Of a stretch of DNA of 46,474 bases, positions 8,783 to 39,316 are shown piece by piece. Within the stretch, counting starts at the first letter, position 1, and each line of letters starts with the position of its first letter. The position numbers and the translations under genes are program-made. The notes below the pieces were generated by a model, which saw only the letters and a program-made list of their open reading frames with translations, was not told the DNA's origin and searched no databases. Source of the stretch: a virus; the IMG/VR virus record IMGVR_UViG_3300044641_001855, positions 1 to 46,474 of that record; one strand, given 5' to 3'.

Positions 8783-9589
8783 TTATCCGACCATGAAGTT
8801 TATTGGGAGTTCGTATTCAAGTTGTACTTGTTGTTCTATTAGTGCTATTTCTTGTTGTGCTTCTGCTACGATTTCTGCACCACGGAGAGTAACACCACCG
8901 GGAAGTTGAACACCAGTGAATTTAGACATATTCATGCCCCACTGTCTCTTGATAAGAGCAGTGACATATTTCTTCAGAAGACGATCATTATAGATCTCGG
9001 TGAACTTATCTGGATTTAGAGCAACATATGCTTCAATCAATAGATTTCCATTTGCTGCAAGTTCTTCTTTCCAGTTCATGTCAATGTGAAGTTTATTCGT
9101 AACCTTACTGAAACGAATTGCTTTTTCTGGTTGGAACATGTCTTGAATCATATTGATATAGCGTTTTGTGCTATCGTACTGAGCAAGACCCATGTTACGA
9201 CTTGACATTAGATTGGTATTGATACCAAAATAATCTGTTAGTGCCATCTGATATCGAACATCGAACATGGAGATGTTGCTGAATGGACCAAACTGGAACA
9301 ACTTGACTATAGAAACTATGTCTCTACCAGTAGGTCCATCACCACCGAAACCATTTACTGGACCTAAATTATCGGTATCAATATATTCGTTTGTGATATC
9401 TGTCGCTGTGACGGGATATAAAAAGTATGCTTTTTCAACACCATCAAAGTGACGCTCTGAGAAGTATTGTAAAGCATCATCTAAACGATCTTCACATTGC
9501 TGCCAATCTACATTGATATCTACAACTGGTGCGCCCAATTGTCTCAATGAATATTCAATAAGGGTTTGTCTTGAACTTGGTGATGCCAT
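8783..9589 (-). CDS. 13: Neck protein (T4 gp13 type)
   Basis: Connector protein that binds the portal side of the neck. It is 268 aa (T4 gp13 is 309). The N-terminal SSRQTLIEYSLRQLGAPVVD and QCEDRLDDALQYFSERHFDG are hallmarks of gp13, and the C-terminal YVTALIKRQWGMNMSKFTGV fits as well. It is the first gene of the neck, packaging, tail and head run (13, 14, 15, 16, 17, 18, 19, 20), with AGGAG before the ATG and a late-promoter-like element just upstream. Confidence 0.93.
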   Translation of the reverse strand: MASPSSRQTLIEYSLRQLGAPVVDINVDWQQCEDRLDDALQYFSERHFDGVEKAYFLYPVTATDITNEYIDTDNLGPVNGFGGDGPTGRDIVSIVKLFQFGPFSNISMFDVRYQMALTDYFGINTNLMSSRNMGLAQYDSTKRYINMIQDMFQPEKAIRFSKVTNKLHIDMNWKEELAANGNLLIEAYVALNPDKFTEIYNDRLLKKYVTALIKRQWGMNMSKFTGVQLPGGVTLRGAEIVAEAQQEIALIEQQVQLEYELPINFMVG

Positions 9590-9603
9590 AAATTCTCCTT
9601 ATA

Positions 9604-9614
9604 GGTATTTATGG
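9604..9614 (-). promoter_or_regulatory. Late-promoter-like element before gp13
   Basis: Minus-strand CCATAAATACC contains CATAAATAC, one mismatch from the T4 late core TATAAATA. Six bases separate it from the AGGAG ribosome site of gp13, so the leader would be very short. It shares ATAAATACC with the element before gp18. Confidence 0.45.
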
Positions 9615-9625
9615 CATTTACCAAA

Positions 9626-10216
9626 TTACTTTAAAGGTTCGGAGTTTAATTTATTTCCTTGTTGAGCAGCAAGTTTTGCTTGTTGTTCATCCATAGCCTT
9701 CTGCATCGCTTCTGGCATATCTGGAAGAGTCACAGGCATCTTATTCAGATCTTCAAAGTTGATGTTTTCAATGTAATACTTACGAGTAATTGGTGCAATT
9801 GCTTCATCTGGTTTGCTTGGGGTGTAGTTTGTAAATCCAGGCATAGTAATTGGGCAGTTTAACTTTGGATAATCTAGTTTGCTATAGTCTGTACCATTAG
9901 CAACTAACCAAGTACCTTGACGATCTCCACATCCACAACCACCGCAGAAGTACTGTCCCTGCGTCTTGCTTTCCTTTAGATGCTCACATGGTGGAACAAC
10001 ACCGTTGAGATGCTTATCACCAAAACAACTTAAAACTCTTAGTTGTTTTGTTGCCTTATTAATCTTCTTCTCATTTAGACCACGAGAAGTTAAAGACATG
10101 GCAAAACTCTGTATCATTCCAATCTTCTTGGAAAATATACTTTTATTATCCGGTACGGCAACAGTTCTAAATTCGATAGGATCTGGTTTGCTCGAACAAG
10201 ACTTATCTTCGCTCAT
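9626..10216 (-). CDS. Unknown cysteine-rich protein between fibre and neck genes
   Basis: 196 aa, not recognised. Cysteines are at 7, 64, 77, 91, 94, 96 and 121; the cluster FCGGCGCGDRQGTWL (90-104) together with C64, C77 and C121 resembles a zinc or iron-sulphur site. The N-terminal 60 residues are basic and contain a helical KKIGMIQSFAMSLTSRGLNE segment. The C-terminus (from about 150) is helical and Gln/Ala-rich. It has TTGGAG before the ATG and sits between the last fibre gene and gp13, so it may be a minor neck or tail component, or an assembly factor for the cysteine-rich fibres upstream. The metal site is inferred from spacing only. Confidence 0.6.
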   Translation of the reverse strand: MSEDKSCSSKPDPIEFRTVAVPDNKSIFSKKIGMIQSFAMSLTSRGLNEKKINKATKQLRVLSCFGDKHLNGVVPPCEHLKESKTQGQYFCGGCGCGDRQGTWLVANGTDYSKLDYPKLNCPITMPGFTNYTPSKPDEAIAPITRKYYIENINFEDLNKMPVTLPDMPEAMQKAMDEQQAKLAAQQGNKLNSEPLK

Positions 10217-10222
10217 AATAAA

Positions 10223-12775
10223 TTACTCCAATTCAATTCTTCTTATTAGTCGAACATTAACCTGAGATGTTCTAGGTACTAAGTATATAGATCCGTAATC
10301 AGACTTGTTATAACTTTGACCAAACATAAACGACTGTTTATTAAAAATCTGAGAATCTAGGTTATATTTTGTAACTGATTGCTGTTCAAAATACGGCGTA
10401 GATGTTAAATAGATGCTAGTTTTCATCGATCTGAATACTTCTGGTATAAAGAATCCTTGATTCAGTTTAGAATTAATAAACTCCAATTCGTTCTTTGATG
10501 GCAAATACCAACCAGACAGTTTGGAATTTTCTCTTAGTGTTTCCATCGTCTTGCTTTGTAAACCATAATATGTTTGACTATCACCGTAAGTATTCCAAAA
10601 ACCATCATATATTGATGCGGGAATTATCTCAGTTGGTTCTGATGTGTCATTAATTGAACCAAGATCATAATCATTTGGTGCAATAATAATTGCCCATCTC
10701 TTTGCAGTTGTTCCATAGCCTACTACATTTGGAATGTATTCTACTGCTGAACCCGTATATGGATTTCCATTAACAGTTGATCCTTGAGTGTTGATTGGAA
10801 CACCCGGTTCAAATACACCAACATATAATCCATCTTGATAATATGTTAATTCGGATTCGGGTAAAGTATTTTCTGCTTGTGTGATTCGTAATGTTAAATT
10901 ATTACCACAATTACCACCAACAACAGTATTGCAATCTACACATCCCTCTGTTGGGCTATCTAAATCGCAACAAATACCACCAGTTCTAAACAAACCACCA
11001 AGTCTAGTACAATTACCCTGATTGGTTTGTATGCAATTGGTGATGTCAACACTGCATGTGCAGCAACTGCCATTCATTTTGTTATTGCAGATATCCATAT
11101 CTGGCTCAACAACCGCATAACAACCGGAACGGAAGCACGAAAGATCTATTATATCGGTAAATGAAACTAGTGGTTGTTTTTCAAAGTCACTAATATTAGA
11201 TGCAATTTTTATAATTCTATTAGTCTCATCTACAGCAAAACAATAATCATTTGCCGGAGATTGATTATTCGGTGATACATCGTTTATATTCGAACAAGAA
11301 ACAAGTTTATATTTTCTGCTTAGAGGATATGTTAATTCTGTATTGAGAGAATTACATGTCATCGTTCCATTTGCATCAATACCGCAGAAAGTATTAGCAC
11401 CAAAAGATGCCTTCGCATATTCTATTCGTGGTATAGATCTAACCATGCTGCGTAAAGATTGAAGTTCTGGTAGATCATTGATAAATGGAGAATAGTATTC
11501 AAAACTATTGTCTAATCTTTGCCCAATAAATCCAAGAGTGGCAAAATTTACTTGAATATTATCTGTGCCATTTCCTGTGGATTTTGGTGGAACATACACA
11601 TTGTGTTGATATAACCTTTTAAGTTTTTGTGCAACAGTTAATGTTTTAAATTGATTATTCTTAGCATCAAAGAATCTTCCATAAATTACAACATTATTAT
11701 TTGAATTAATGTATGCACTGAATGTTTTTGTTGCTATTAAATCTAAAGCAGGCAAGTATGGTGGATTAGTTAAAGGAACTGGTGAATTTCGTGGATTATC
11801 TGCAAATCTATTTTTAAATGCAGTTGTTGCATAATAACGAGGAATAGAATTTTCATCCAGTATTGCAAAGTAACCATCAGCCCATCTTGCTGGTTCATCT
11901 ATTGTGTAATCCTGAGAATATCCGCCCGGACAAACTTTTGTAACACCAATTGGTTCTGTGGTTTTTGCAAACGGAGGACCTCCTGTGTTTTCTTGATTTG
12001 GTGCCAAGATTAAATCATAAGCAAGTGAATTTGTGTTATTTCTTATTTGAAACACACCTTGATTTACACCTTGTGCCATTTTTCCGGCGTAATTATCATC
12101 AAACCACGCTTTATTACCACAAATATTAGAATATCCGAGTAGTCCCCAACAGAATACATTAGTACCATTTTCGCATGAATTTAAAACTGTGTTGTTTGTC
12201 TCTGAAAGTTTACAATCGTTTATAGCAGGAGCAGCACTTCCAACTTGTTCTTCGCATTTTCTACCGTTATTGTAGAAAGTAGAAGTGTATGGAAATACTG
12301 CTTTAGCAGCACATTCTTTTTCACTACAGACATCTATGCAATTTGCATAGACGGTTCCATCATCATTAAACTCTGGGTAACAACATGCTCGTTGCTCTCT
12401 GTAATCCAATACATTTGATTGTTCTAGTGTACCAGAAACACATAGACTTTCTTCTGATTCCGTGCAAGTAGAACCTAGAGTCCAAAGACCGCTTAAAGAT
12501 TCGCATTCGCATAATGTAGTTACTGCTGTTCCACCTAATGAACAAGCGCAGCAGCAACCAAGAGATGATGGAGTTATATTTGTATTTTCATCACATTTAC
12601 CCGCAATGAAATGCCCATTTTGGATGTTGCAATCTGATACTGTGGTGTTTTCTGTTTTTGATACTTCATTAGTATCAGAATCATAAACATAACAACAACC
12701 AGTTATACCATTGTTTTGAATATATTGGCTATAATCTACTACAGTCTGTGATCTTGTTCTAAATTGAATTGACAT
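10223..12775 (-). CDS. Giant cysteine-rich fibre/adhesin with lectin-like C-terminus (paralogue 4)
   Basis: 850 aa. The first ~190 residues carry cysteine modules beginning GCCYV, GCCCA and RACCY, each ending G..C; a fourth (GSCCTCS...GGLFRTGGIC) lies near 570-605. The middle part has GANTFCGIDANGTMTC and two similar segments (DYCFAVDETNRI, SCFRSGCYAVVEP), reminiscent of degenerate RCC1-type propeller repeats. The C-terminal ~210 residues show RWAIIIAPNDYDLG, SGWYLPSKNELEFI and VRLIRRIE, the pattern of DUF1566/Lcl domains, which have a lectin-type fold. Unlike its three neighbours it lacks a collagen-like start. It is probably a virion adhesin; function is inferred from domains and from location in the fibre cluster. 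Confidence 0.65.
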   Translation of the reverse strand: MSIQFRTRSQTVVDYSQYIQNNGITGCCYVYDSDTNEVSKTENTTVSDCNIQNGHFIAGKCDENTNITPSSLGCCCACSLGGTAVTTLCECESLSGLWTLGSTCTESEESLCVSGTLEQSNVLDYREQRACCYPEFNDDGTVYANCIDVCSEKECAAKAVFPYTSTFYNNGRKCEEQVGSAAPAINDCKLSETNNTVLNSCENGTNVFCWGLLGYSNICGNKAWFDDNYAGKMAQGVNQGVFQIRNNTNSLAYDLILAPNQENTGGPPFAKTTEPIGVTKVCPGGYSQDYTIDEPARWADGYFAILDENSIPRYYATTAFKNRFADNPRNSPVPLTNPPYLPALDLIATKTFSAYINSNNNVVIYGRFFDAKNNQFKTLTVAQKLKRLYQHNVYVPPKSTGNGTDNIQVNFATLGFIGQRLDNSFEYYSPFINDLPELQSLRSMVRSIPRIEYAKASFGANTFCGIDANGTMTCNSLNTELTYPLSRKYKLVSCSNINDVSPNNQSPANDYCFAVDETNRIIKIASNISDFEKQPLVSFTDIIDLSCFRSGCYAVVEPDMDICNNKMNGSCCTCSVDITNCIQTNQGNCTRLGGLFRTGGICCDLDSPTEGCVDCNTVVGGNCGNNLTLRITQAENTLPESELTYYQDGLYVGVFEPGVPINTQGSTVNGNPYTGSAVEYIPNVVGYGTTAKRWAIIIAPNDYDLGSINDTSEPTEIIPASIYDGFWNTYGDSQTYYGLQSKTMETLRENSKLSGWYLPSKNELEFINSKLNQGFFIPEVFRSMKTSIYLTSTPYFEQQSVTKYNLDSQIFNKQSFMFGQSYNKSDYGSIYLVPRTSQVNVRLIRRIELE

Positions 12776-12776
12776 A

Positions 12777-15700
12777 TTAGCAACTTTCGTAATTATAACA
12801 TTCAGGGCACAACATCTCTACACAAATGCCTTCTGTGATTTTTACACTCTTAGTCATTGTGTTATTTGACTGATCTCGTTGTAGTAATGTAAACCCAGGC
12901 AGCCCCGGTGAAGTTGGTGTTGTCATTGTAGATGGTGCAATCCAACCTCCTTCTAGTATCCATGCAGTTGAATCTTCACTACCACCCGAACCAGTATTTT
13001 GGTTTAAACACACACCTATGCATGTACCATCTGGTCCTCTACTACAATTTGGACCTCCAGTTTCGCAACAATCCGCAGCTTCGCATCCAAATCCACACAG
13101 AGGTTGTGAACCACCCGAATCCCATCCGGTTTGATATGAAATTGGGATCGCAATAGTATTGCTGAATCCCATTGTTTGCTGTCCGGGATTGACTGGAGCA
13201 TTTGGTGAATTAAAAAATACAGTTGCAGTTCTAAATGCATCTAGATTGTATCTGAGATTTCTTCCAAATATGCCTCGCTCGACAATGGCATCTGGTTCAT
13301 CTGCTGCTCTCAATCTAAAATAAATTTCTCCAACAGAATCTAAACTTAGTGGATAAAACTCTGCAATTCCTAATTCATTTTGTATTACTCCACTAGGTGG
13401 TGGAACGCCGATTTGTTGATTTACAGTGCTAGATGGAAGATAATAACCATAGTTCAAACATGCTGCTTCATCAGTTAAATCATTTAAACCATAAGCAGCA
13501 GCATAGATGCCAGATGTATTAAATCCACGCAAATATGGATCATACTGTGTGTATATTGCTCCAATTTCTGTGCAATATTCCACTGGATTTGTTTGTGTTT
13601 CAAAAACAAATAGACCTGGTGTGCATGCCAAAGTGCTATCTCCTATTTGAGAATTCATAGCAGTTCTCATTTTGTTTCTGAATATAATTTGTGCTGTTTG
13701 ATTATTGGGATTATTAATATAGTTTGCAGTTAGATTATTCCAAAAAGTTTTACCATTTCCATCATAAAAACTATTAATCATGTTTACTGTGTCAGAACGA
13801 TTAAGTAAATTTAGATTTGTAGTTTCTTTTAAGTATTTTCCTTTTGCACAATCTGTGTAATCTTTAGAATAAGTTATTCTTCCCCAAATTGGAGGAAATG
13901 GAGCGGCCAAACATTTTACTTCGTTATGGTATGGTTCTAGTTTGTCGAGAGTTATTGTATTTCCAAGATCATATCTTGTTTTATATCTGATTGTTGTTAA
14001 TGGATCACATAATTTACAATTTTGTTTTTCGCTTTCGCTGGTGTAACCAAAACGCTCTAAACAATTTATTTTATTTTGGGCTGGATCTATGGTTCTTACA
14101 TATGATCCGACAAATGAACAATAGAATTTTCCACTGACACTTATTGGATTGGATTCTAATCCACTTGGAATAAAATTAGTCGGAGAAAGTCTATTAGTCC
14201 AATCTTCAATATAGTACAAACCTCTTTTTCCAGATACCCCACCATTTTCATATGAATCTTTTTTTACTTCTACTGTTGTAAATTTTGGATGTGGTATTGT
14301 AAAACTTACAGAATCAGTTGTACCGATTGCATCATTTAATTTCGTATTATCTTCTTCTGATACTACAAATACTGCTCTATATGGTGCTTGTCCACCGTGT
14401 CTAGAATGATTGTACCAATCACTGCCTATGCCATTTGGCAAGTATGGATTATTTCCAGAAGTGTCTGTGCTTCCATCAATTCTTGTATCGGGGAAGCACC
14501 AGAAACATGCAACATGTGATCCTTCCGTAGAATTACTGCAATCACACGATTCGAATGGATAGTCTGGTGCAGCAACAGAACATGGTAGATTTGCATCTAT
14601 ACCATCAATTGACTGACATCCACAGTTCGTAGAAGAATCACATGCTTTATAACAAGTTTTGGTTGTGCATGGTGATTCGGTACATGATCCATTTAAATAT
14701 CCAGTACAAGAAACGCAAGTGTCAACTGGAGTACAATCTGAACCGTCACATGTATGACATGAAACTGGATTGCATTCATTATTGCATGACGAATCTGAGT
14801 AATAGCCTAATTCAGAACATGTTTGCCCTGATTCTATAACTACAGGACTGCAATTGCAACCATTATTGCCTCTTGAGCATTGATAACATGTGGTTGGCTT
14901 GCAGTTGCAGTTAATACTAGAACAAGTGGTATTTCTACCCATGTAAATACCACCACTCTCATTACACTCAAATGGCGTTTCTACATTAGTACAAGTATAT
15001 GTTTCGCCGTCTTGTTTGCAACATGCACCGGGTGCGATTATGTGATCGCAGCAAGATGCTTGTGAACAATTTGAAGCCAGTACAATCTTTCCACCAAGAT
15101 AGTTGCAATGTTCTTCAGTAAGATTTCCTAGGCATTCTCCATCTTTGCAGCAAATTGTTGGTGTCTTACATTGATTGTAGCATAGACCAGATCTTTGTGT
15201 GCCTGATATATTGTCTACATCACTGTCTGGATATTCACCAACTTGACCACATGTTATTCCTGATATAAAGTAACCACCAATTGTTTGGCATAGACTTGGA
15301 TCTATATCAGAGATGCATCTGCCTTCTGAGCAGCAAACGCCATCATATTGTTTTTCGTCGCTGTTGACTATGCATGAATTTTTATTGCAAGGAACTAAAC
15401 CTTCGAATGTTCCTTGTCGTTCGTCGCAGTATGATTGGGTAACATAATCTTCGCAGTATTTGGTTCCATCTAAATCAATATAGCAGCAAGATCCGCGAAC
15501 ACCCGGATTCTTTACTTCATCAACACCAAAACCACGAGCGGTAAAATTCGCCCTCCACACAGAATCAGAATTCGTTCTCCACATGTGAAGAATATTTGTT
15601 CCGGGGTAAAAGATTGGCTTGCTTTCTGCATCAAACACAACATCTGTTGGGAAATTCCAAACATCGTCACCTTCTACAACCAAAGTGACAGACATAATCT

Positions 15701-16466
15701 GCCCGGTTGGAATTGTATCGTATCTGAATCCCTTAATACCAATTGGAGTTGTTAATTGATAAACTGTGGCTCTAGAAACATCTAATGTGATACCATCTGT
15801 ATCGACATCATAGAAGTCATCTAGTGTTATGATCTTTTCTCCCCGCTGGAATGGACCAACAGAAAGAATAGAATCGGTGATATCGGCAACTACATTTCTT
15901 CCTGCTGTCTCACCACCAAAATTTACATATCCATAGTGAGAATTACCAATTCTAGTTGCAACGGTTGTTGATTCTGGAATCAAATCTGTAGACATGATGT
16001 ATGTCTTTTCTTTGACATACACGATTCTATTATTTTCGGTAGAAGCAGAAATACCACCAGCAGTTGTGTTTGCAGAAATGGTGAATATTAAAGTACCATC
16101 TGCATCATAAGTCAAACCAAGTAAACCACTAGTTCTGAAGTTATAGAAATCTAGGGTTATACCACCACAGACACCCTTTAATATGGCATATCCGCCACCA
16201 ACAGAAGAAGCAGTTAATCCTGCATAGATTCCTGTTGCGCCCTGTAAAATACCAGCAGAGGTTGATGTGCCGTCAGATAGTACCAATTGAACAGTGCCAT
16301 CTTCAGCAACAACTACTTGAGTTATGTAATTAGAGTCTAGTCCAGTAGCACCAGTTGCACCGCGAATAGTTTGTGCTGGCCCTGTTGGTCCTGTAGGTCC
16401 TACTGGTCCAGCAGAACCTGCACCAGAAGCCGGATATATTGAACTATAACCGATGTTGTTTGTCAT
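12777..16466 (-). CDS. Giant collagen-headed cysteine-rich fibre protein (paralogue 3)
   Basis: 1229 aa, the largest of the four related proteins. Residues 19-42 are collagen-like (GPVGPTGPTGPAQTIRGATG), a trimerising element common in phage fibres. A beta-rich segment follows. From about 330 come cysteine modules (GSCCYI, GVCCSE, TICCKD, GACCKQ), then a denser part with CxxCxG-type clusters (TCYQCSRGNNGCNCS, VSCHTCDGSDC) to about 690. The C-terminal 540 residues have no lectin-type WYIPS motif, unlike the other three paralogues, and end CPECYNYESC. There is no signal peptide. It lies one base from the next gene, in an evident co-transcribed set. Confidence 0.65.
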   Translation of the reverse strand: MTNNIGYSSIYPASGAGSAGPVGPTGPTGPAQTIRGATGATGLDSNYITQVVVAEDGTVQLVLSDGTSTSAGILQGATGIYAGLTASSVGGGYAILKGVCGGITLDFYNFRTSGLLGLTYDADGTLIFTISANTTAGGISASTENNRIVYVKEKTYIMSTDLIPESTTVATRIGNSHYGYVNFGGETAGRNVVADITDSILSVGPFQRGEKIITLDDFYDVDTDGITLDVSRATVYQLTTPIGIKGFRYDTIPTGQIMSVTLVVEGDDVWNFPTDVVFDAESKPIFYPGTNILHMWRTNSDSVWRANFTARGFGVDEVKNPGVRGSCCYIDLDGTKYCEDYVTQSYCDERQGTFEGLVPCNKNSCIVNSDEKQYDGVCCSEGRCISDIDPSLCQTIGGYFISGITCGQVGEYPDSDVDNISGTQRSGLCYNQCKTPTICCKDGECLGNLTEEHCNYLGGKIVLASNCSQASCCDHIIAPGACCKQDGETYTCTNVETPFECNESGGIYMGRNTTCSSINCNCKPTTCYQCSRGNNGCNCSPVVIESGQTCSELGYYSDSSCNNECNPVSCHTCDGSDCTPVDTCVSCTGYLNGSCTESPCTTKTCYKACDSSTNCGCQSIDGIDANLPCSVAAPDYPFESCDCSNSTEGSHVACFWCFPDTRIDGSTDTSGNNPYLPNGIGSDWYNHSRHGGQAPYRAVFVVSEEDNTKLNDAIGTTDSVSFTIPHPKFTTVEVKKDSYENGGVSGKRGLYYIEDWTNRLSPTNFIPSGLESNPISVSGKFYCSFVGSYVRTIDPAQNKINCLERFGYTSESEKQNCKLCDPLTTIRYKTRYDLGNTITLDKLEPYHNEVKCLAAPFPPIWGRITYSKDYTDCAKGKYLKETTNLNLLNRSDTVNMINSFYDGNGKTFWNNLTANYINNPNNQTAQIIFRNKMRTAMNSQIGDSTLACTPGLFVFETQTNPVEYCTEIGAIYTQYDPYLRGFNTSGIYAAAYGLNDLTDEAACLNYGYYLPSSTVNQQIGVPPPSGVIQNELGIAEFYPLSLDSVGEIYFRLRAADEPDAIVERGIFGRNLRYNLDAFRTATVFFNSPNAPVNPGQQTMGFSNTIAIPISYQTGWDSGGSQPLCGFGCEAADCCETGGPNCSRGPDGTCIGVCLNQNTGSGGSEDSTAWILEGGWIAPSTMTTPTSPGLPGFTLLQRDQSNNTMTKSVKITEGICVEMLCPECYNYESC

Positions 16467-16477
16467 TAATTACTCTC

Positions 16478-19390
16478 TCATCTACAGGAAGAACATGTGT
16501 ACAAGGATTTAAAACTATATTCGAATTGGTTTTTGAAATCCTTGTTTTTAAAGTATATAGGAACCATGCGGCATGCTCTTAGTTTTGCTGTAGAAGAGGA
16601 CTTTAGCGAAGAAACCATTTTACCTGTGCTAAAATCTTGAGTATATGCTCTATGTGCTTGAGCGAGTTTGTACTTTCTCCAAGTATCAGTTAGCGGATCT
16701 CCAATAGTAACTATTCCCTCCAGTGAATTGTTTTGAGGATCGTATGTCTTCATACCATATTCACCAGATTGGGATGTCTTAGAATCTAGTAGTTTTCCAC
16801 CAGTAGTAGAAGACCAATACTTAGATGGAGATAGGGTTGTCCAGCCAGATGCTGCGTTATAGATTAAACCAGAATTAATGGCATCCATGTTGTAATAGAT
16901 GATGTTTAGTTCAAGCGCACTTGGGATGTACCAATCCGAATAACCATTATATGATTGTTTATTCTTATCGCTGATGTGATATAAAGCAGTTGTTTCATTG
17001 TTAACCGCATACCACATTTCTTTGTACTTGGTTTTAAAGTACTCTGAATTTCTACCGATCTGTGTTTGATCTATATCAGATTGCCAATATGATATTTTGC
17101 TATGATTAAATCTCTGATATGCGAGTGGATCTATCGTTTCCAGTTTACCATTTAGAGTGTAGTTACTTGCAATGAACCATGTATTTCTTTCGATGGATGT
17201 CTCATCGAATAGTCTTGTGTTTAGCAATCCATCAAATACGGTTGTTCCATATGGAGCAAGAACATTGTTCTGCCACAGAGAATTGCTGTAATTCTCAAAA
17301 CCACTTGGTGTGCTGAAACCATTTACAGACATGCTCATACCAAAAGAAACATTGTCTGTTGTAAAATCTTCTGGTGCTACAACCAATATCCATGCGCTTG
17401 GAATGTCAGATCCATAGACTTGAGATGCATATTGTTTATATGCAAGTGCTGGATTGAATCCATACTTCTTGTAGTCTGAACCATTATCATTGCAGGCTTT
17501 TCCTTCATCAGTTAGGCAAGCATCTGTTAGTCTGTTATAGAATGTAAGATTTACTTTATCTACTACACCAGATAACGACTTAACATCTGTGACATACACC
17601 TTACCACCGCTCTTACTCAATGCACCAAGATCAACATAACGAGATGGTGAGAAGTTTGAGCAGTTGCATTTTATAGATCCATTATAAACACCGTTTACTG
17701 GAACATATCTTTTGACAGTCGCTGTGGTGAAATTTTCAATTTCTGAAATTACTTCACCTTTGGCAAAGTAACCATCTATATTGAATCCAACTGGTGGTGG
17801 ATAACCAACAAATCCAGCCACAATTCCGCCTTGGAAATAATCACCAACTTTTAATCCTGCGGGAATTGATGAACCGGCATCTGTAGAAACAGCAGAGAGT
17901 CGGAAACTTGGTGCATTTTGTGAATCTTTGCAGCATTGTGAGGAAGAACAAATACTTCCTGGACCTTGGAATACACCACCAAGATTTACACATTCTTGTG
18001 GAGTTATATCATCTCTACAATCATCTGAACCTATGCAACACGCACCCAAGAATCCGTCAATGCAGCAGTTTCTTTCATCACATGGTTTTGCTTCGTATCT
18101 ACCATTAAGTTCATTACACAGATCTTGTGAAGCAGAACTATCTGGAAGAGAATAGCAGTTTCCGTTTACGCAGCAAGATGCGTCTAGTGGGCAGTTGCTT
18201 GGGCAACCTTCTTCAAGATCACCACATTTTACATTTGGATAAAATGTACCATAAACTTTAGCGCAGAGTTCTTGGTTTGTCTCTAGACATACACCATTAA
18301 CACAACATGCGCCACCAGAATAGCAATCATTTGTTAGATATCTGTCGTTGCATGATTTAAAACTAAAGTTACCACCAATCGACTCACAGAAATCTTGTGT
18401 TGCATAATCTAAACAAGAACGATTAACTATGCTGTTTGTATCATTGGCATCTTTACTGCAATAACAGCAAGAGCCAATTACAGAATCTTTGTATGTTTCT
18501 GTTGAATATGTTATTCCCTTACCGATAACATCTATTTGAACAGGACCCGTTACGCTACTACCAATCGTAATTCCTTCTGCACGGAATGAGAGTTTTGGAT
18601 AGATATTATCAGTTTGATCTTTTACTGTTATGAATACACCCTGATCGGTTCTATTAAATACATTTGATGTATCCTGAACCATAGAGTATCTAACATTTAT
18701 AGTGTTTAATAGACTTGATACATTTGAGTCTGAAGCATTAAACCAATTGATATTAATACGACTATCTAAAGTGAATCCAGTTGTATAGTCTTGGTTTATT
18801 TTAAATCTGAATGTATCTAATGTTAAACCAAATAAACTTCCGGCAACAGGAGTAATTGCGGATCTATAATAGTTTGTGTTTAGATCATTTGTCGCATCTA
18901 CTTTTTGTCCAAATCCTGCATCAGTTATATACAACAAACTACCAGTTTTTCCAACAGCGGCGTTTGTTGTACCAGAGGTTGCAAGATAAAATGAATCTAA
19001 ACTAATTCCACCAGTTATTTCACCAACTAATTTTATAGTTTTGAAGTTTAATGAATATGGATTAGTTAATGAGAATCCACCAAATATACTTACGGCATCT
19101 GCATCAGATGAACCAGTAAATGTGATTTTAAAGTTTGGGTTTGGATCTCTATATGAAGATCCTTTTGGTGCAGTAACTCCGAAGGAGAAGTAAGTATTTC
19201 CCTCGTATGTTATACCCAAAACATAATTTTGGATTAGAGCAGATACAAATTGAATACCAGTTGAACCAGTAGGACCAGTGACAGAATAACCAGTTATTCC
19301 AATAGGTCCTGTAGGTCCAGTAGGACCTGTAACATAGTTTATACCGGCTGCAACTAAATTACTTGGTATGGATGATGAACCGAATATCAT
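16478..19390 (-). CDS. Collagen-headed cysteine-rich fibre with lectin-like C-terminus (paralogue 2)
   Basis: 970 aa. Order: short N-terminal anchor; collagen-like TGPTGPTGPIG and VTGPTGSTG at 21-46; beta-rich stalk to about 310; cysteine modules (GSCCYCS, GACCVNG, ASCCVNG, GACCIGS, each ending in C after a GG/NG.(F/Y) step) to about 495; then a C-terminal DUF1566/Lcl-like domain beginning GLKVGDYFQGGIVAGFV and including AWILVVAPEDF, SDWYIPSALELNIIYY, SKYWSSTTGG and LRACRMVPI. This C-terminal pattern is nearly co-linear with paralogue 1, indicating gene duplication. It probably forms a trimeric fibre or tip adhesin. It shares a one-base overlap with its upstream neighbour. Confidence 0.7.
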   Translation of the reverse strand: MIFGSSSIPSNLVAAGINYVTGPTGPTGPIGITGYSVTGPTGSTGIQFVSALIQNYVLGITYEGNTYFSFGVTAPKGSSYRDPNPNFKITFTGSSDADAVSIFGGFSLTNPYSLNFKTIKLVGEITGGISLDSFYLATSGTTNAAVGKTGSLLYITDAGFGQKVDATNDLNTNYYRSAITPVAGSLFGLTLDTFRFKINQDYTTGFTLDSRININWFNASDSNVSSLLNTINVRYSMVQDTSNVFNRTDQGVFITVKDQTDNIYPKLSFRAEGITIGSSVTGPVQIDVIGKGITYSTETYKDSVIGSCCYCSKDANDTNSIVNRSCLDYATQDFCESIGGNFSFKSCNDRYLTNDCYSGGACCVNGVCLETNQELCAKVYGTFYPNVKCGDLEEGCPSNCPLDASCCVNGNCYSLPDSSASQDLCNELNGRYEAKPCDERNCCIDGFLGACCIGSDDCRDDITPQECVNLGGVFQGPGSICSSSQCCKDSQNAPSFRLSAVSTDAGSSIPAGLKVGDYFQGGIVAGFVGYPPPVGFNIDGYFAKGEVISEIENFTTATVKRYVPVNGVYNGSIKCNCSNFSPSRYVDLGALSKSGGKVYVTDVKSLSGVVDKVNLTFYNRLTDACLTDEGKACNDNGSDYKKYGFNPALAYKQYASQVYGSDIPSAWILVVAPEDFTTDNVSFGMSMSVNGFSTPSGFENYSNSLWQNNVLAPYGTTVFDGLLNTRLFDETSIERNTWFIASNYTLNGKLETIDPLAYQRFNHSKISYWQSDIDQTQIGRNSEYFKTKYKEMWYAVNNETTALYHISDKNKQSYNGYSDWYIPSALELNIIYYNMDAINSGLIYNAASGWTTLSPSKYWSSTTGGKLLDSKTSQSGEYGMKTYDPQNNSLEGIVTIGDPLTDTWRKYKLAQAHRAYTQDFSTGKMVSSLKSSSTAKLRACRMVPIYFKNKDFKNQFEYSFKSLYTCSSCR

Positions 19391-22185
19391 TATTGATTAT
19401 TCCTTAGAAGATTTGGTGTCTTCCATAATTTATATTGCTCTGTTGTGGATGCTGGAATTGCTCCATCACATCTCAATGCTCTAATTGGTCTTACTTTCAG
19501 TCCGGTGCTTCTGCTTTCCTTTTTGACTTTGAAATTTGTAGAATCTCCAGTTGAATCAAAGTACATTGCCCATGCAACAGAACCATGTTCGGGCTTTCCA
19601 GAAGTATATACACCTTCAGTCAGAGAGGTTGTATCAAAGGAACCAGTTGAAGACCAGTGCCAATCATAGAGAGGAACACCACCGTTTGAAAGCAAATACG
19701 CGTTTGCATTAAATCCGTAATATGGATTTGTAGAATCACTTATCGTATTTGCTGCAATAAATGCAAGTTCATCATGACTTGGAATATACCAATCTGTAAT
19801 TTGACTTGGGTTTCCAGTTAAACCATGTGAGTTTGTATATGCATTATTATCGAAGAGTTTCAATGCACGAACTGCTGTCATGTCTGTTCCAGATGAGAAT
19901 TCATCTGATGTGAAATGCGGAGATCGATTCACTTTCAAGTAATCTGCATTGTCAGCGGATAACATGCGAATAGTATTATAAAGTCCCCAATTTCTATGCC
20001 ACAATCCATTAGCAGATTTTACATTTCGTGTAAACAATCTAGCAACTGGATCTGTTCCGTTCTTTCGAGTTGAATAGCAAGATTGGAAAGTTACATTCTT
20101 GATGTTATCAAGCGACTCACCAGTTACTCCATAGTATCCCTCACCGTATCTGAGGTAGGATGAATCGTATGATTGTGAGAGATATGTAAAATCACCATAT
20201 GTGTAGTTTGTCAGATTTAAAATTGGACCCCAAGCAATACCGTCACCAAACCACGGGAAGGTATCTGAGTAGGCTAGTTCTTCGGTTGGGTTTATTGCAT
20301 TTCCATCAGCATCAACAGATGCTGGATATAGTGAAACTATTATGTAATATGAATCCGCGTCTTGTGATACTGTTGTCAGACAAGACTCTCCAGTTACACC
20401 ATATCCAACATAATCATTTTCACTGGTGTAATAACCAGCACCTGTCTCACCACCGTACATAAATGTTCCAGTTATACCCTGTCGTGAGAATGCATGTGCG
20501 CCACCCAATAGTTTTGAGTTTCTTGGATTATAGATTCCAACAACCATACCACCGCCGATTAGATCACCGGGGCGTAAAGTAAATCCAAGATAACCACCGC
20601 ATGATAATTGTGAAGAACATGTCACACCACTGCATGATGTGCCATTACCATGATAATTTCCATTATTGGAAAAACAAGTATAAGCATCGGTTACTGTGCA
20701 TATTCCGTTCGTATAGCAACAAGCACCACTGCCGCTAGAACATGTTGGATTTGTATCTTCTGAGTAACAAAGAACTCCTCTGCCTAAGAAACTACCACCA
20801 GATGCGATACAATCTTCTTTTGTTAGATCTTTGCAGTTTCCTTTACCATCACAGCAGCCACCAGTTTCATCGAAACAAGTTTCACAGTTAACATCTTTGC
20901 ATGTTTTGTCTACACCAGTAAATATAGACTCAACGGAATCGCTGTTCAACATCAAGCAATCAAACGGCGATACATTTTCTATGCAGTATGTTGAAATCTT
21001 TCCATCGGTTGTGTTTTTAACACAGCAGGAACCAACAGATTCACTGCAAACACTTGTTGAGCCTATTACACCGCATGTAGTACCAACACCAGAGAAGAAT
21101 CCATCACAGAGTCCATCTGTTGTGATTTGACATGTTCCATCACCCTTACAGCAAGCACCTGTTAGACCAGAATAAAAGTCTAAAACTCTAAGTGCATTTT
21201 CTGTATAATTTTGTATGATGCTGTTGCAGAAATAATTACCACTACCACCAACTTTATTAAAGATATAACCGTACCATGTATCTCTAATTGAGATAAAGTG
21301 AATTACATAATTTTCACCACTTCTAAAACATGGTTGTCTATTGAATGGAAATATTACAGGATTAAGATTTCCTGCCTGTTTAAAACTAATACCGCTATAA
21401 TTTTCAGGAGACACACCATTCTGTATGTGTAAAGTAATTGCGGATGGTGTTACTGATGGTTTTGGCAAAGTAATTTGTACAAAACTAGTTCCAGAACCGT
21501 TTAAATCTATAGAATAAATTTTTGAATTTGTTGTATTGGTATCTGTACTAGTACTTAAATTAACAAATGAAAACGACGAACCACTGTTAAATGTGGAAGC
21601 AGTAGTTTGTGCCCCACTAGTTCTCTCAAACACATTTATTTTATTGATCTGAACGGTATCTGTTATGTTTGCATACTTAGCAGCACCAAGTGTCACACCA
21701 ACCAAATTTCCAGTTGAATTTGTTGCTAATATTTGTGCTAAAGTACCAGCACTTATTCCATATTCACCATCATAACGATCAACAGAAATTGTTATTGTTT
21801 CGGAGTCTGATGTAACACCAATATTTGATCTATACCCAGTGCTTCCTTTGATTGTTCTCAATTGAACTGTTCGTTCAGAAGCAGTTGCTCCAACAAACAC
21901 ATAACCAGTTCCAGTAGATCCAGTTTTACCATCAAGATAAATTACTGTATTTCCGGTTATACCATAAAGCAAACCGGAAGCAGCGTAAGTTGTGCCATTA
22001 GTAAAACTTGTGACTAGTGTATAACCAGAAAGAGTTATACCAGAGACTATGTTGTAAGCAGTAGCACCAGTAGGACCAACAAAGTCATTTCCCTTTGGAC
22101 CTTGAGGTCCGGTTGGACCTGTAATTCCATAGATTGTGATTCCTTTTATGGCCTTGAACTGACTACTACCACGGATTGATGGCAT
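19390..22185 (-). CDS. Collagen-headed cysteine-rich fibre with lectin-like C-terminus (paralogue 1)
   Basis: 931 aa. Residues 20-42 are collagen-like (GITGPTGPQGPKGNDFVGPT). A beta-rich stalk runs to about 340. Four cysteine modules follow (GACCKGDGTC, GSCCVKN, GGCCDGKGNC, GACCYTNGIC), each ending (F/Y).G.G..C. The C-terminal ~370 residues form a DUF1566/Lcl-like domain: LRPGDLIGGGMVVGIYN, DWYIPSHDELAFIAA, WHWSSTGSFD, GLKVRPIRALR. Lcl-type domains share the C-type lectin fold used by some phage receptor-binding proteins (family knowledge). It heads the four-gene array and lies directly after smaller fibre genes. A receptor-binding role is inferred. Confidence 0.7.
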   Translation of the reverse strand: MPSIRGSSQFKAIKGITIYGITGPTGPQGPKGNDFVGPTGATAYNIVSGITLSGYTLVTSFTNGTTYAASGLLYGITGNTVIYLDGKTGSTGTGYVFVGATASERTVQLRTIKGSTGYRSNIGVTSDSETITISVDRYDGEYGISAGTLAQILATNSTGNLVGVTLGAAKYANITDTVQINKINVFERTSGAQTTASTFNSGSSFSFVNLSTSTDTNTTNSKIYSIDLNGSGTSFVQITLPKPSVTPSAITLHIQNGVSPENYSGISFKQAGNLNPVIFPFNRQPCFRSGENYVIHFISIRDTWYGYIFNKVGGSGNYFCNSIIQNYTENALRVLDFYSGLTGACCKGDGTCQITTDGLCDGFFSGVGTTCGVIGSTSVCSESVGSCCVKNTTDGKISTYCIENVSPFDCLMLNSDSVESIFTGVDKTCKDVNCETCFDETGGCCDGKGNCKDLTKEDCIASGGSFLGRGVLCYSEDTNPTCSSGSGACCYTNGICTVTDAYTCFSNNGNYHGNGTSCSGVTCSSQLSCGGYLGFTLRPGDLIGGGMVVGIYNPRNSKLLGGAHAFSRQGITGTFMYGGETGAGYYTSENDYVGYGVTGESCLTTVSQDADSYYIIVSLYPASVDADGNAINPTEELAYSDTFPWFGDGIAWGPILNLTNYTYGDFTYLSQSYDSSYLRYGEGYYGVTGESLDNIKNVTFQSCYSTRKNGTDPVARLFTRNVKSANGLWHRNWGLYNTIRMLSADNADYLKVNRSPHFTSDEFSSGTDMTAVRALKLFDNNAYTNSHGLTGNPSQITDWYIPSHDELAFIAANTISDSTNPYYGFNANAYLLSNGGVPLYDWHWSSTGSFDTTSLTEGVYTSGKPEHGSVAWAMYFDSTGDSTNFKVKKESRSTGLKVRPIRALRCDGAIPASTTEQYKLWKTPNLLRNNQ

Positions 22186-22186
22186 A

Positions 22187-23392
22187 TTAAATTCCTAGTA
22201 TTTGTTCTAGTGTTTGAATCCGTGCTTCTAGTGCTACTAGTTTTGCATCAACATCCGCCACATTAGGAGTAGATAATGTATCTGATACTTCTATGCTATT
22301 GAATATAGCAGAATCTGGTAAGTACGATACAGTTGTATCTGGTTTTACTCTCAGCAATGTCTTTGTGCTAAATGCAGAAACTTGATTTGATGTTCCAGCA
22401 CTTGCTTCAATGTTTGTTGAAAGTTTTGGTGTTTTGAAGTGTGTGATTTGTCCAGAAGTTACAGCGACACGATTTAAACCTAAAACTGGTGTTTGCAACT
22501 CATAAGTTGTATAGTTGGAATTCCACAATTCTTCTTGTGGTGTTATGTGATCTAATACTATTGTGTTATTTGAAGTATCAACAGATCTTATGAATGCAAA
22601 CGATCCAATACCCTTTCCGGTAGTTGGATTAATTGGTCTTATTGATTGTTGCGATAGAGCAGAAACAAAAGAATAAGAGCCATTTATCGTTAATTGTTCA
22701 TATGAACCGTAATCGGTTCCGTATATGTCGTATGATTCACTATATGTTGCAATAGACAATACCTGTGGAGTGCTTGTATCTACCCAACCATCTGGAACAG
22801 GAGAATCTGAATCAACTGTTTGTATTGCTCCGATATTCGAAGAACTAGTTCTTACCGTGTAATTTTCGGCAGCAGATGATTCATAACCAATATAGTTGAC
22901 AACAACGCTATTATACAATTCATCTGATGTTGGGCATACTTGAAGAACAGGTTTTACGATGTAACCAGTTTCTTCCATAAATTCGAAAGTAATTCCACCC
23001 AAAACTGTTGGGCTTAAGAAGAAAATATCGGTTCCACCAGCACCACCAGCCGAACCACTTATTCCTGAAATTATTGCTAATAGGTTTGGGTAATTCATCA
23101 AACCATGTGTAACTACGGTTGCATATGTCACACCACTTGTTTGTGATATCGATTCGACAACACCAACAACTTCTGCTTGTGATAGATTGAGAGTACCACC
23201 ATAATTTGGATTTGCAATAGATTGAGTAAATTTGCCAGTTGCCACATCATAACGAATAACATCGCCAGCAGCAACAGTAGAATCCCAGTTTTTGCTAGTA
23301 TCCTGCTTAAATGCCAAACGCTTCCCGTTTGATGCATCGGAGGAAGCGACAAGTATTCCAGAGATTATAGAATTATTTGTGCAAGATGACAT
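22187..23392 (-). CDS. Tail-fibre-associated structural protein
   Basis: 401 aa, beta-rich, no catalytic motif. Residues 43-98 (GDVIRYDVATGKFTQSIA, then AEVVGVVESI) form a module also present in the 612-aa fibre two genes upstream (GNIVYLDSTGKIEKALA, SEVVGIVIGF), so the two share a fibre building block. The C-terminus (VDAKLVALEARIQTLEQILG) is a heptad-type coiled coil, suitable for trimerisation or for joining the next fibre. The start has AAGGAAC upstream. It sits between a receptor-binding-like fibre and the collagen-headed giants; an adaptor role is possible but not shown. Confidence 0.6.
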   Translation of the reverse strand: MSSCTNNSIISGILVASSDASNGKRLAFKQDTSKNWDSTVAAGDVIRYDVATGKFTQSIANPNYGGTLNLSQAEVVGVVESISQTSGVTYATVVTHGLMNYPNLLAIISGISGSAGGAGGTDIFFLSPTVLGGITFEFMEETGYIVKPVLQVCPTSDELYNSVVVNYIGYESSAAENYTVRTSSSNIGAIQTVDSDSPVPDGWVDTSTPQVLSIATYSESYDIYGTDYGSYEQLTINGSYSFVSALSQQSIRPINPTTGKGIGSFAFIRSVDTSNNTIVLDHITPQEELWNSNYTTYELQTPVLGLNRVAVTSGQITHFKTPKLSTNIEASAGTSNQVSAFSTKTLLRVKPDTTVSYLPDSAIFNSIEVSDTLSTPNVADVDAKLVALEARIQTLEQILGI

Positions 23393-23401
23393 TTATGTTC
23401 C

Positions 23402-24511
23402 TTATGTTTCTAGACCTCTATCGTATGGACTGTAATCCAAATCTGCATCTGCAACCATATGAACTAATATATCATCAAAAACCACTGCACCAGTTGCAAC
23501 ATTAAATGCTACACCATATGTAGTTCCAGAAGTTGTAAGTGTGGCAGCACCTGTTGGGGAAAATCTTGTCACCTGATTCCATCCACGAGTTCCTGAAGTT
23601 AGTCTCATGTCTCTAGAAGCAGTTTTGTTATATCCATCATTAGCAACACCACTACTCGGTGAGTATAAAGTAATTGATGGTGCTTTTCTCATCGGTGTGT
23701 TGAAGTGATAATTGTATGTGTAATTTGGAGTTACAGTAAAATCTATGGCAGTCAAATCATTACCACCGACTGTTGTAATTGTTCCTGGCAAAGTTGTTAC
23801 TGGATAACTCGTGTAATAATATTTTGCTTGTCTAGTTTTTTCTTCTTCTGAATCTGTATATAATGTTGTCGATCCAAAACCTAGTTGAAGTTTTACAGAA
23901 CTTATACTCACTGTGGTATTTGGCATAACACTAAAACCAACACCAAAATAATGATCACCTGATATACCAGAATTTGAAACATATGGTGGTATAAATGTAA
24001 ATGAATACTGCGTCCAATATGAATTAATTTCTGCAATATTAAATACACTCTTATATTCTGTTGAATTTGGACTTATTGCTTCTCTATAATAACAACCCAA
24101 AGTTGTTCCTGTAATTCCAGCAGAATACTTTGCATAAAAAGAAAGAGTTAATGGTGAACCACCATATTGAGTAGAATTTTCTTGTTTATTTTCTAAATAA
24201 CAATAACCACCAGTTATTGATGTAATATTGTTCGCAATTGTGATGTAATAATTTGAACGATTTGATTGCTCGTCACTGACGCTAAATAGTTCTCTATAAA
24301 TTGAAATTGAACCAGTGCTTCCTCCGGTTCTTTTCTGCGTATCAATTGCATACCATCTATCGGCTGTTTTTTCTGTTTGTGCTGTATATGTTGTACCACT
24401 GGCTCCAACATTTGAATACTTTGCATTATATGGTATGGTAAAGGTTGTTCCTCTTTGCCATAAATCAAAATTTCCGTTTATTATTAAGTTAGATGTATTT
24501 TGATTTGTCAT
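23402..24511 (-). CDS. Tail fibre protein with carbohydrate-binding-like domain
   Basis: 369 aa. The start (NLIINGNFDLWQRGTTF, then TADRWYAID) is a signature of phage fibre and virion proteins that contain a jelly-roll, carbohydrate-binding-like domain. The next ~180 residues are beta-rich with repeated aromatic and polar strands, ending in a segment with HFNTPMRKAPSITLYSP, also frequent in fibre tips. There is no collagen segment and only two cysteines. The gene lies in the fibre cluster and is likely a receptor-binding or decoration subunit. The family pattern is well known; the ligand cannot be read from sequence. Confidence 0.7.
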   Translation of the reverse strand: MTNQNTSNLIINGNFDLWQRGTTFTIPYNAKYSNVGASGTTYTAQTEKTADRWYAIDTQKRTGGSTGSISIYRELFSVSDEQSNRSNYYITIANNITSITGGYCYLENKQENSTQYGGSPLTLSFYAKYSAGITGTTLGCYYREAISPNSTEYKSVFNIAEINSYWTQYSFTFIPPYVSNSGISGDHYFGVGFSVMPNTTVSISSVKLQLGFGSTTLYTDSEEEKTRQAKYYYTSYPVTTLPGTITTVGGNDLTAIDFTVTPNYTYNYHFNTPMRKAPSITLYSPSSGVANDGYNKTASRDMRLTSGTRGWNQVTRFSPTGAATLTTSGTTYGVAFNVATGAVVFDDILVHMVADADLDYSPYDRGLET

Positions 24512-38875: not shown

Positions 38876-39316
38876 ATGGCGTATAAGAGTAAGTATAAAC
38901 CAAAAAATCCACACAAATATGTTGGCAACCCAGACAACATAATATGTAGATCACTGTGGGAACGAACATTCTGTAAGTATTTAGACGAAAATACGAATGT
39001 TATTCGTTGGTCAAGTGAAGAACTTCAGATCCCATACATCTCACCAGTTGATAACAGACCTCACATGTATTATCCTGATTTCTTATTCGAAATAAAAAAA
39101 GAATCTGATGTTGAAACTTTGGTGGTAGAGATAAAACCAGAAAAGCAAACAAAAGAACCAATTCGTGGAAACAAAAGTAGTAGAACTTTCCTGACCGAAA
39201 GCCTACAATATCAGATAAATAAATCTAAGTGGGATTCTGCCAAACAATTCTGTTCGAAACAGGGGTGGAAGTTCGTGGTTTTGACTGAAAATAACATGTT
39301 CAAAGGAAAAACTTAA
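38876..39316 (+). CDS. 4: Head completion nuclease-fold protein (T4 gp4 type)
   Basis: Finishes the packaged head so that tails can attach; the family has a TnsA-like endonuclease fold. It is 146 aa (T4 gp4 is 150). Conserved parts are KNPHKYVGNPDNIICRSLWE, VIRWSSEELQIPY, MYYPDFL and VVEIKPEKQT. Candidate catalytic residues are Glu29, Asp68 and Glu85-x-Lys87. The start is set by the ATG ten bases from the divergent gene; GAGG lies 13 bases upstream inside that gene. The stop overlaps the next ATG as TAATG. Confidence 0.93.
   Translation: MAYKSKYKPKNPHKYVGNPDNIICRSLWERTFCKYLDENTNVIRWSSEELQIPYISPVDNRPHMYYPDFLFEIKKESDVETLVVEIKPEKQTKEPIRGNKSSRTFLTESLQYQINKSKWDSAKQFCSKQGWKFVVLTENNMFKGKT

Follow-up and report, generated by a model that had tools for sequence, protein, structure and literature searches.

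Four adjacent genes for cysteine-module proteins form a candidate accessory host-adhesion cassette in a lineage of T4-like myoviruses

The window analysed here, 46,474 bases long, is an entire IMG/VR virus record. It contains four adjacent genes encoding proteins of 931, 970, 1229 and 850 aa (D931, C970, B1229 and A850; Table 1), present as open reading frames just as the earlier note had described them, all on the minus strand and spaced by only -1 to 11 nt. We propose, with a probability of roughly 0.7, that these genes, which lie in the late structural operon of a T4-like myovirus, form a discrete accessory cassette for host adhesion, and that they encode long fibres whose tandem cysteine modules would be stapled by disulphides after exit from the host.

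The portal protein of the window is 51% identical to that of cyanomyophages, its neck gene gp13 matches gp13 of P-SSM2, and gp32-like, sheath, tube, terminase and baseplate genes were all found; the virus was therefore assigned to the T4-like myoviruses. A cyanophage host was considered by way of psbA and set aside, since no psbA match was obtained in nine contigs. The operon, read in the direction of transcription, leads from baseplate genes (gp25, gp6 and further wedge proteins) to o612, o369 (a tail-fibre match), o401, D931, C970, B1229, A850 and Cys196; gp13, gp14 and gp15 come next, followed by the genes for terminases, sheath, tube and portal. The cassette thus has baseplate wedge genes on one side and the gp13/gp14/gp15 neck genes on the other. 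The order o401-D-C-B-A-Cys196-gp13 was kept in diverged contigs. At the edge of the structural region, a TnsA-like endonuclease N-terminal domain is encoded on the plus strand (window 38876-39316; Pfam E 6e-21). Seven tRNA genes and a tmRNA-like prediction were found in a related 109 kb contig (G012, L213:5507-12548) and none in the window.

Table 1. Positions in the window of the four array genes, their parts and the adjoining Cys196 gene
Feature	Position	Strand	Remark
D931, candidate fibre protein	19390..22185	-	collagen-like N-terminus, four modules, C-terminal Lcl_C
D931 collagen-like (Gly-X-Y)5, res. 20-34	22084..22128	-	
D931 four IRHD-like cysteine modules, res. 342-527	20605..21162	-	
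D931 probable Lcl_C/DUF1566 domain, res. 793-901	19483..19809	-	weak alone; in 7/15 family members
C970, candidate fibre protein	16478..19390	-	architecture as D931
C970 collagen-like segments, res. 22-47	19250..19327	-	
C970 four cysteine modules, res. 305-486	17933..18478	-	28/28 Cys kept in orthologues
C970 probable Lcl_C/DUF1566 domain, res. 794-875	16766..17011	-	
B1229, candidate fibre protein	12777..16466	-	collagen-like N-terminus, four modules, fast-evolving Cys-rich tip; no Lcl_C detected
B1229 collagen-like segments, res. 17-44	16335..16418	-	
B1229 four cysteine modules, res. 324-520	14907..15497	-	26/26 Cys kept
B1229 variable tip, res. 521-1229	12780..14906	-	putative receptor-binding part
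A850	10223..12775	-	divergent modules, RCC1-like propeller, C-terminal Lcl_C; without collagen segment
A850 three divergent N-terminal modules, res. 24-176	12248..12706	-	
A850 RCC1-like beta-propeller, about res. 302-560	11096..11872	-	
A850 fourth module, res. 569-604	10964..11071	-	
A850 probable Lcl_C/DUF1566 domain, res. 752-845	10241..10522	-	
Cys196, six invariant Cys, adjoins gp13	9626..10216	-	lineage marker; not strictly part of array

The four proteins are rich in cysteine (31-71 residues each, with 71 in B1229, 35 in C970 and 31 in D931); the other structural ORFs mostly have 0-5, the exceptions having 7, 10 and 25. The repeated module is about 38 residues long and follows the pattern G-x-CC-x(n)-C-x(5-9)-C-x3-G-G-x-(F/Y)-x-G-x(2-4)-C-x(3-8)-C. 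The C-x2-G spacing given in the earlier note had to be corrected to C-x3-G-G and a sixth cysteine added, and scans using the C-x2-G pattern mostly missed the modules. A loose form of the motif occurred 9 times, compared with a mean of 0.03 and a maximum of 2 in 1000 composition shuffles. A profile of 110 modules from other contigs, from which the window and its close orthologues had been left out, was run over 152 six-frame ORFs; it picked out B1229, C970 and D931 with protein E values of 6e-20 to 8e-27 and placed four modules, no more and no fewer, in each. A850 stayed below significance in the same scan (E 0.16); when scored alone, it yielded one supported copy (the fourth, 12 bits) and three divergent copies at the right spacing. 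The expected four or so modules per gene, at least 16 in total, were thus recovered for B, C and D as 12 clear copies, and A850 contributes one supported and three probable copies. A second, different cysteine-rich repeat, with CxxC and CxC spacings, lies directly after the modules of B1229 (window 14427-14906, residues 521-680).

At least 470 distinct modules could be aligned from related contigs. Five of the module cysteines were conserved at 93-100% in this alignment of 470, and the sixth was less regular in position. Related proteins carry from 1 to 19 copies and reach 284 cysteines; single frames extend to 2571 aa (L089, in contig G007) and to 3001 aa (in G1000). Direct searches returned no Pfam, PHROG or NCBIfam model for the module. 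The profile search against phage and bacterial proteins that had been suggested earlier found it in related contigs and in Acidobacteriota; among 50,697 phage records, cultured T4-like phages included, neither B, C and D nor a 1950 aa protein with 14 modules had any relative, and the module block alone gave one match at E 2, which was taken as chance. The earlier reading had depended on a fold shared among the modules. AlphaFold models (monomers, on alignments of 9-13 rows) suggest such a fold in both modelled paralogues, at low to moderate confidence (pLDDT about 50-76 in the module regions, with whole-model means of 36 for A850 and 46 for C970): the order beta-beta-alpha-beta recurred at all four modules of C970 and of A850, except that the third N-terminal copy of A850 lacks the final strand.

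D and C are paralogous across roughly 525 N-terminal residues (hhalign E 1.7e-27), B and C have common sequence over about residues 300-520, which reaches further upstream in some relatives, and D, C and B have in common a short N-terminal segment with a G/Y-S-S motif. The three collagen-like starts reported earlier do exist in B, C and D, but each amounts only to (Gly-X-Y)5 near the N-terminus, and the phrase 'giant collagen-headed' overstates five triplets; relatives reach 12. A match of the C970 profile to BclA was attributed to the common collagen-like stretch and discarded. Two features are additional to the earlier description, namely a probable C-terminal Lcl_C domain in three proteins and the RCC1-like propeller of A850, the middle of which matches RCC1-type propellers by fold. 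Lcl_C (PF07603) was matched at E 5.8e-6 in C970, 0.0049 in A850 and 0.042 in D931, all under the Pfam gathering cut-off, and it recurs in six of nine A family members as it does among those of D. The Legionella Lcl_C domain is trimeric and C-type-lectin-like and binds glycosaminoglycans (PMC11162425), and DUF1566 genes of Bacteroides phages are diversified tropism targets (PMC8143477). None of the four window proteins had a significant match to PHROG tail-fibre families, and weak matches to such families were seen in a few relatives, among the D orthologues.

For C and D, orthologous arrays were found at 80-92% and at 55-60% identity. Cysteines were invariant at 35 of 35 positions in C, 38 of 40 in A and 64 of 71 in B, and whole-protein invariance was 80%, 62% and 45%, respectively. 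Purifying selection acts on the modules of B, C and D (dN/dS 0.06-0.16), and the A850 copies gave values of 0.07-0.24. The tip of B1229 was only 35-60% identical, versus 82-96% for the N-terminus, and had a dN/dS of 0.30-0.60 with 38-41 of its 43 cysteines kept; judged from sequence, this is how a putative receptor-facing tip on a cysteine scaffold would be expected to look. The Lcl_C heads of C and D were conserved rather than hypervariable, which makes them poor candidates for the arms-race surface. Diversification by a DGR was also considered and rejected for the region 9000-23500 of the window, which contains no template/variable repeat pair; a reverse transcriptase and its template could still lie beyond the fragment. 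Co-loss of cysteines yielded no informative rows for disulphide connectivity, because cysteines were almost never lost.

Cys196 was found in at least 577 IMG/VR contigs and in 0 of the 50,697 phage records. It is 53-89% conserved in its first relatives, and its invariant cysteines include a CxxCxC cluster. Module genes lay upstream of Cys196 in 22 of the 24 fetched contigs with roughly 10 kb of upstream sequence. L257 and L267 have the order o612-o401-Cys196-gp13; the array is missing, and no module was found anywhere in either record. The two are near-identical over the region and were therefore counted as one event; both also lack the tail-fibre-like gene o369. Because some members lack the array cleanly, we regard it as a discrete accessory cassette. 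Cys196 was ruled out as a dedicated partner of the array, since it persists where the array is absent, and it is possibly a neck-associated metal protein. The lineage is one of abundant T4-like viruses, and no cultured member was found.

A profile of 71 diverse phage modules was compared with all PDB sequences. Only four matches fell below E 1, and all were iRhom1 or iRhom2 (E 2.1e-7 to 1.7e-5); the next match, at E 5.5, was not an iRhom. The alignment spans one full six-cysteine repeat of the iRhom homology domain (IRHD), with all six cysteines in register and non-cysteine matches in addition, together with a weaker partial repeat. When the cysteines were held fixed, 0 of 2000 shuffles per protein reached the score (33-34 bits, against at most 20.9). 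The IRHD lies outside the cell, and its solved structure has 8 disulphides (PMC11248996, PMC12184519), and two structural studies report no similar structures (PMC11248996, PMC10148629). Our literature search returned no paper joining iRhom, bacteriophage and homology domain. The phage modules differ in being tandem repeats of soluble fibre proteins, the likeness is one at the sequence level, and no rhomboid family, as a rhomboid-like membrane core would give, was present among the Pfam matches of the array proteins.

The module also occurs in bacteria: in 8 of 149 Acidobacteriota genomes, in 1 of 398 genomes of the phylum of G004, in 1 of 296 of the phylum of G003 and in 0 of 145 Verrucomicrobiota genomes. 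Several of the Acidobacteriota proteins have N-termini that, judged by eye, resemble Sec or lipoprotein signals, and a multicopper-oxidase-like region forms the end of some; in L297, L298, L300 and L302, two modules are fused to a multicopper-oxidase-like protein. It is quite possible, at slightly below even odds, that the phage module and the animal IRHD repeats share one ancestral extracellular disulphide module, present also in exported bacterial proteins, and that phages turned it into a stalk unit oxidising only after lysis. The similarity to iRhom could instead be a convergence of small cysteine-rich repeats, uninformative on fold or chemistry, which would compete with this one line of evidence and not with the fibre reading. 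The alignment is short (36 residues) and dominated by cysteines, the phylogenetic distance is enormous, and a Foldseek comparison of the low-confidence C970 model with the PDB gave no fold at E <= 0.001, iRhom included. However, the PDB holds many other cysteine-rich domains, and the iRhoms alone were matched at E < 1; the register of the six cysteines, the non-cysteine matches, the second partial repeat and the failure of the fixed-cysteine shuffles to attain the score likewise make us consider convergence rather unlikely.

Under the fibre reading, each gene would encode one long subunit, probably homotrimeric, of a tail or baseplate fibre. In D, C and B, an N-terminal attachment segment would lead into a collagen-like triple helix, a beta-rich shaft and the four tandem modules; D and C would then end in a C-type-lectin-like Lcl_C head, and B in its fast-evolving cysteine-rich tip, which would be the main specificity part. 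A would combine modules, propeller and Lcl_C head. No signal peptide-like hydrophobic stretch was found in the first 60 residues of the array proteins; since they lack an evident secretion signal, they would be made and assembled reduced in the cytoplasm and could become oxidised only after lysis. Outside the host, the module cysteines of the virion would form disulphides, and the oxidised modules could act as rigid, protease-resistant stalks in open water.

The earlier note had offered a disulphide lock and metal binding side by side. By analogy with the IRHD and the exported-looking bacterial proteins, we favour disulphides: the relatives are extracytoplasmic, and the conserved CC-C-C-C-C pattern lacks a CxxC metal knuckle, CxxC being present in only 62 of 470 modules. 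Cytoplasmic units that bind Zn or Fe, need no oxidation to fold and stay metal-loaded in the virion would suit synthesis in a reducing compartment without signal peptides, and both the CxxCxC cluster of the small protein adjoining the array and the odd cysteine counts of B, C and D would agree with them. Nevertheless, we judge metal binding improbable: the knuckle is missing from the pattern, the module recurs both in the disulphide-bonded IRHD and in bacterial proteins that look exported, and Cys196 is found in contigs that have no array. The odd counts mean that not all cysteines can pair within one chain; those left over may bond between the chains of a trimer or stay as free thiols. No glutaredoxin was detected in nine related contigs; the sulfhydryl-oxidase search was run without a ringing control.

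Several known systems resemble the array in part. The Legionella adhesin Lcl (DUF1566/Lcl_C) joins a collagen-like stalk to a C-terminal Lcl_C domain, as D931 and C970 probably do. In contrast, the array proteins are phage-encoded, lack a secretion signal, have five Gly-X-Y triplets only, carry four intervening modules and have an Lcl_C head of weak similarity, and the full-length NCBIfam adhesin_Lcl cut-off was not reached (13.7 of 500 bits). In Bacteroides phages, DUF1566/Lcl_C serves as a tropism domain of DGR proteins (PMC8143477), whereas the array has no repeat pair, its Lcl_C heads are conserved and it is the B1229 tip that varies. In pelagimyophages, the host-recognition cluster lies beside neck genes and carries variable tail-fibre cargo including collagen repeats (PMC7029224). 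The array occupies the same genome position as this pelagimyophage/cyanomyophage cluster, with candidate adhesion genes beside Cys196-gp13-gp14 that are absent in L257 and L267; it differs in keeping its D-C-B-A order rather than being a non-syntenic island, and in B, C and D having no relatives among the phage records. Like T4 gp34-37 and gp12, the products are encoded in the structural region and would be long, probably trimeric fibres for receptor binding, but they bear disulphide-type modules and lectin-like heads. The proposal of a modular adhesion system distinct from those T4 fibres is well supported by the operon position, the Lcl_C heads, the lack of a significant fibre-family match and the synteny of the cassette.

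That the proteins serve superinfection exclusion or sit on the surface of the infected cell, as Lcl and the Acidobacteriota module proteins are exported or surface-bound and pelagimyophage host-recognition clusters also contain surface-modifying genes (PMC7029224), is very improbable, given that they have no signal peptide-like stretch, that the array is embedded in a baseplate-neck structural operon, and that collagen-like N-termini and PHROG tail-fibre matches occur among the orthologues.

As a host-adhesion cassette of fibres, the array would represent a widespread, unnamed fibre family in a T4-like lineage, and it offers a well-defined case in which to test whether phage fibres made in a reducing cytoplasm are stabilised by disulphides. 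To our knowledge, the modules are the first sequence relatives of the iRhom homology domain; if the common ancestry is true, that domain, reported to have no structural relatives, would belong to a large family with phage and bacterial members. Because phages without the array occur in nature, the contribution of the cassette to host range can be tested.
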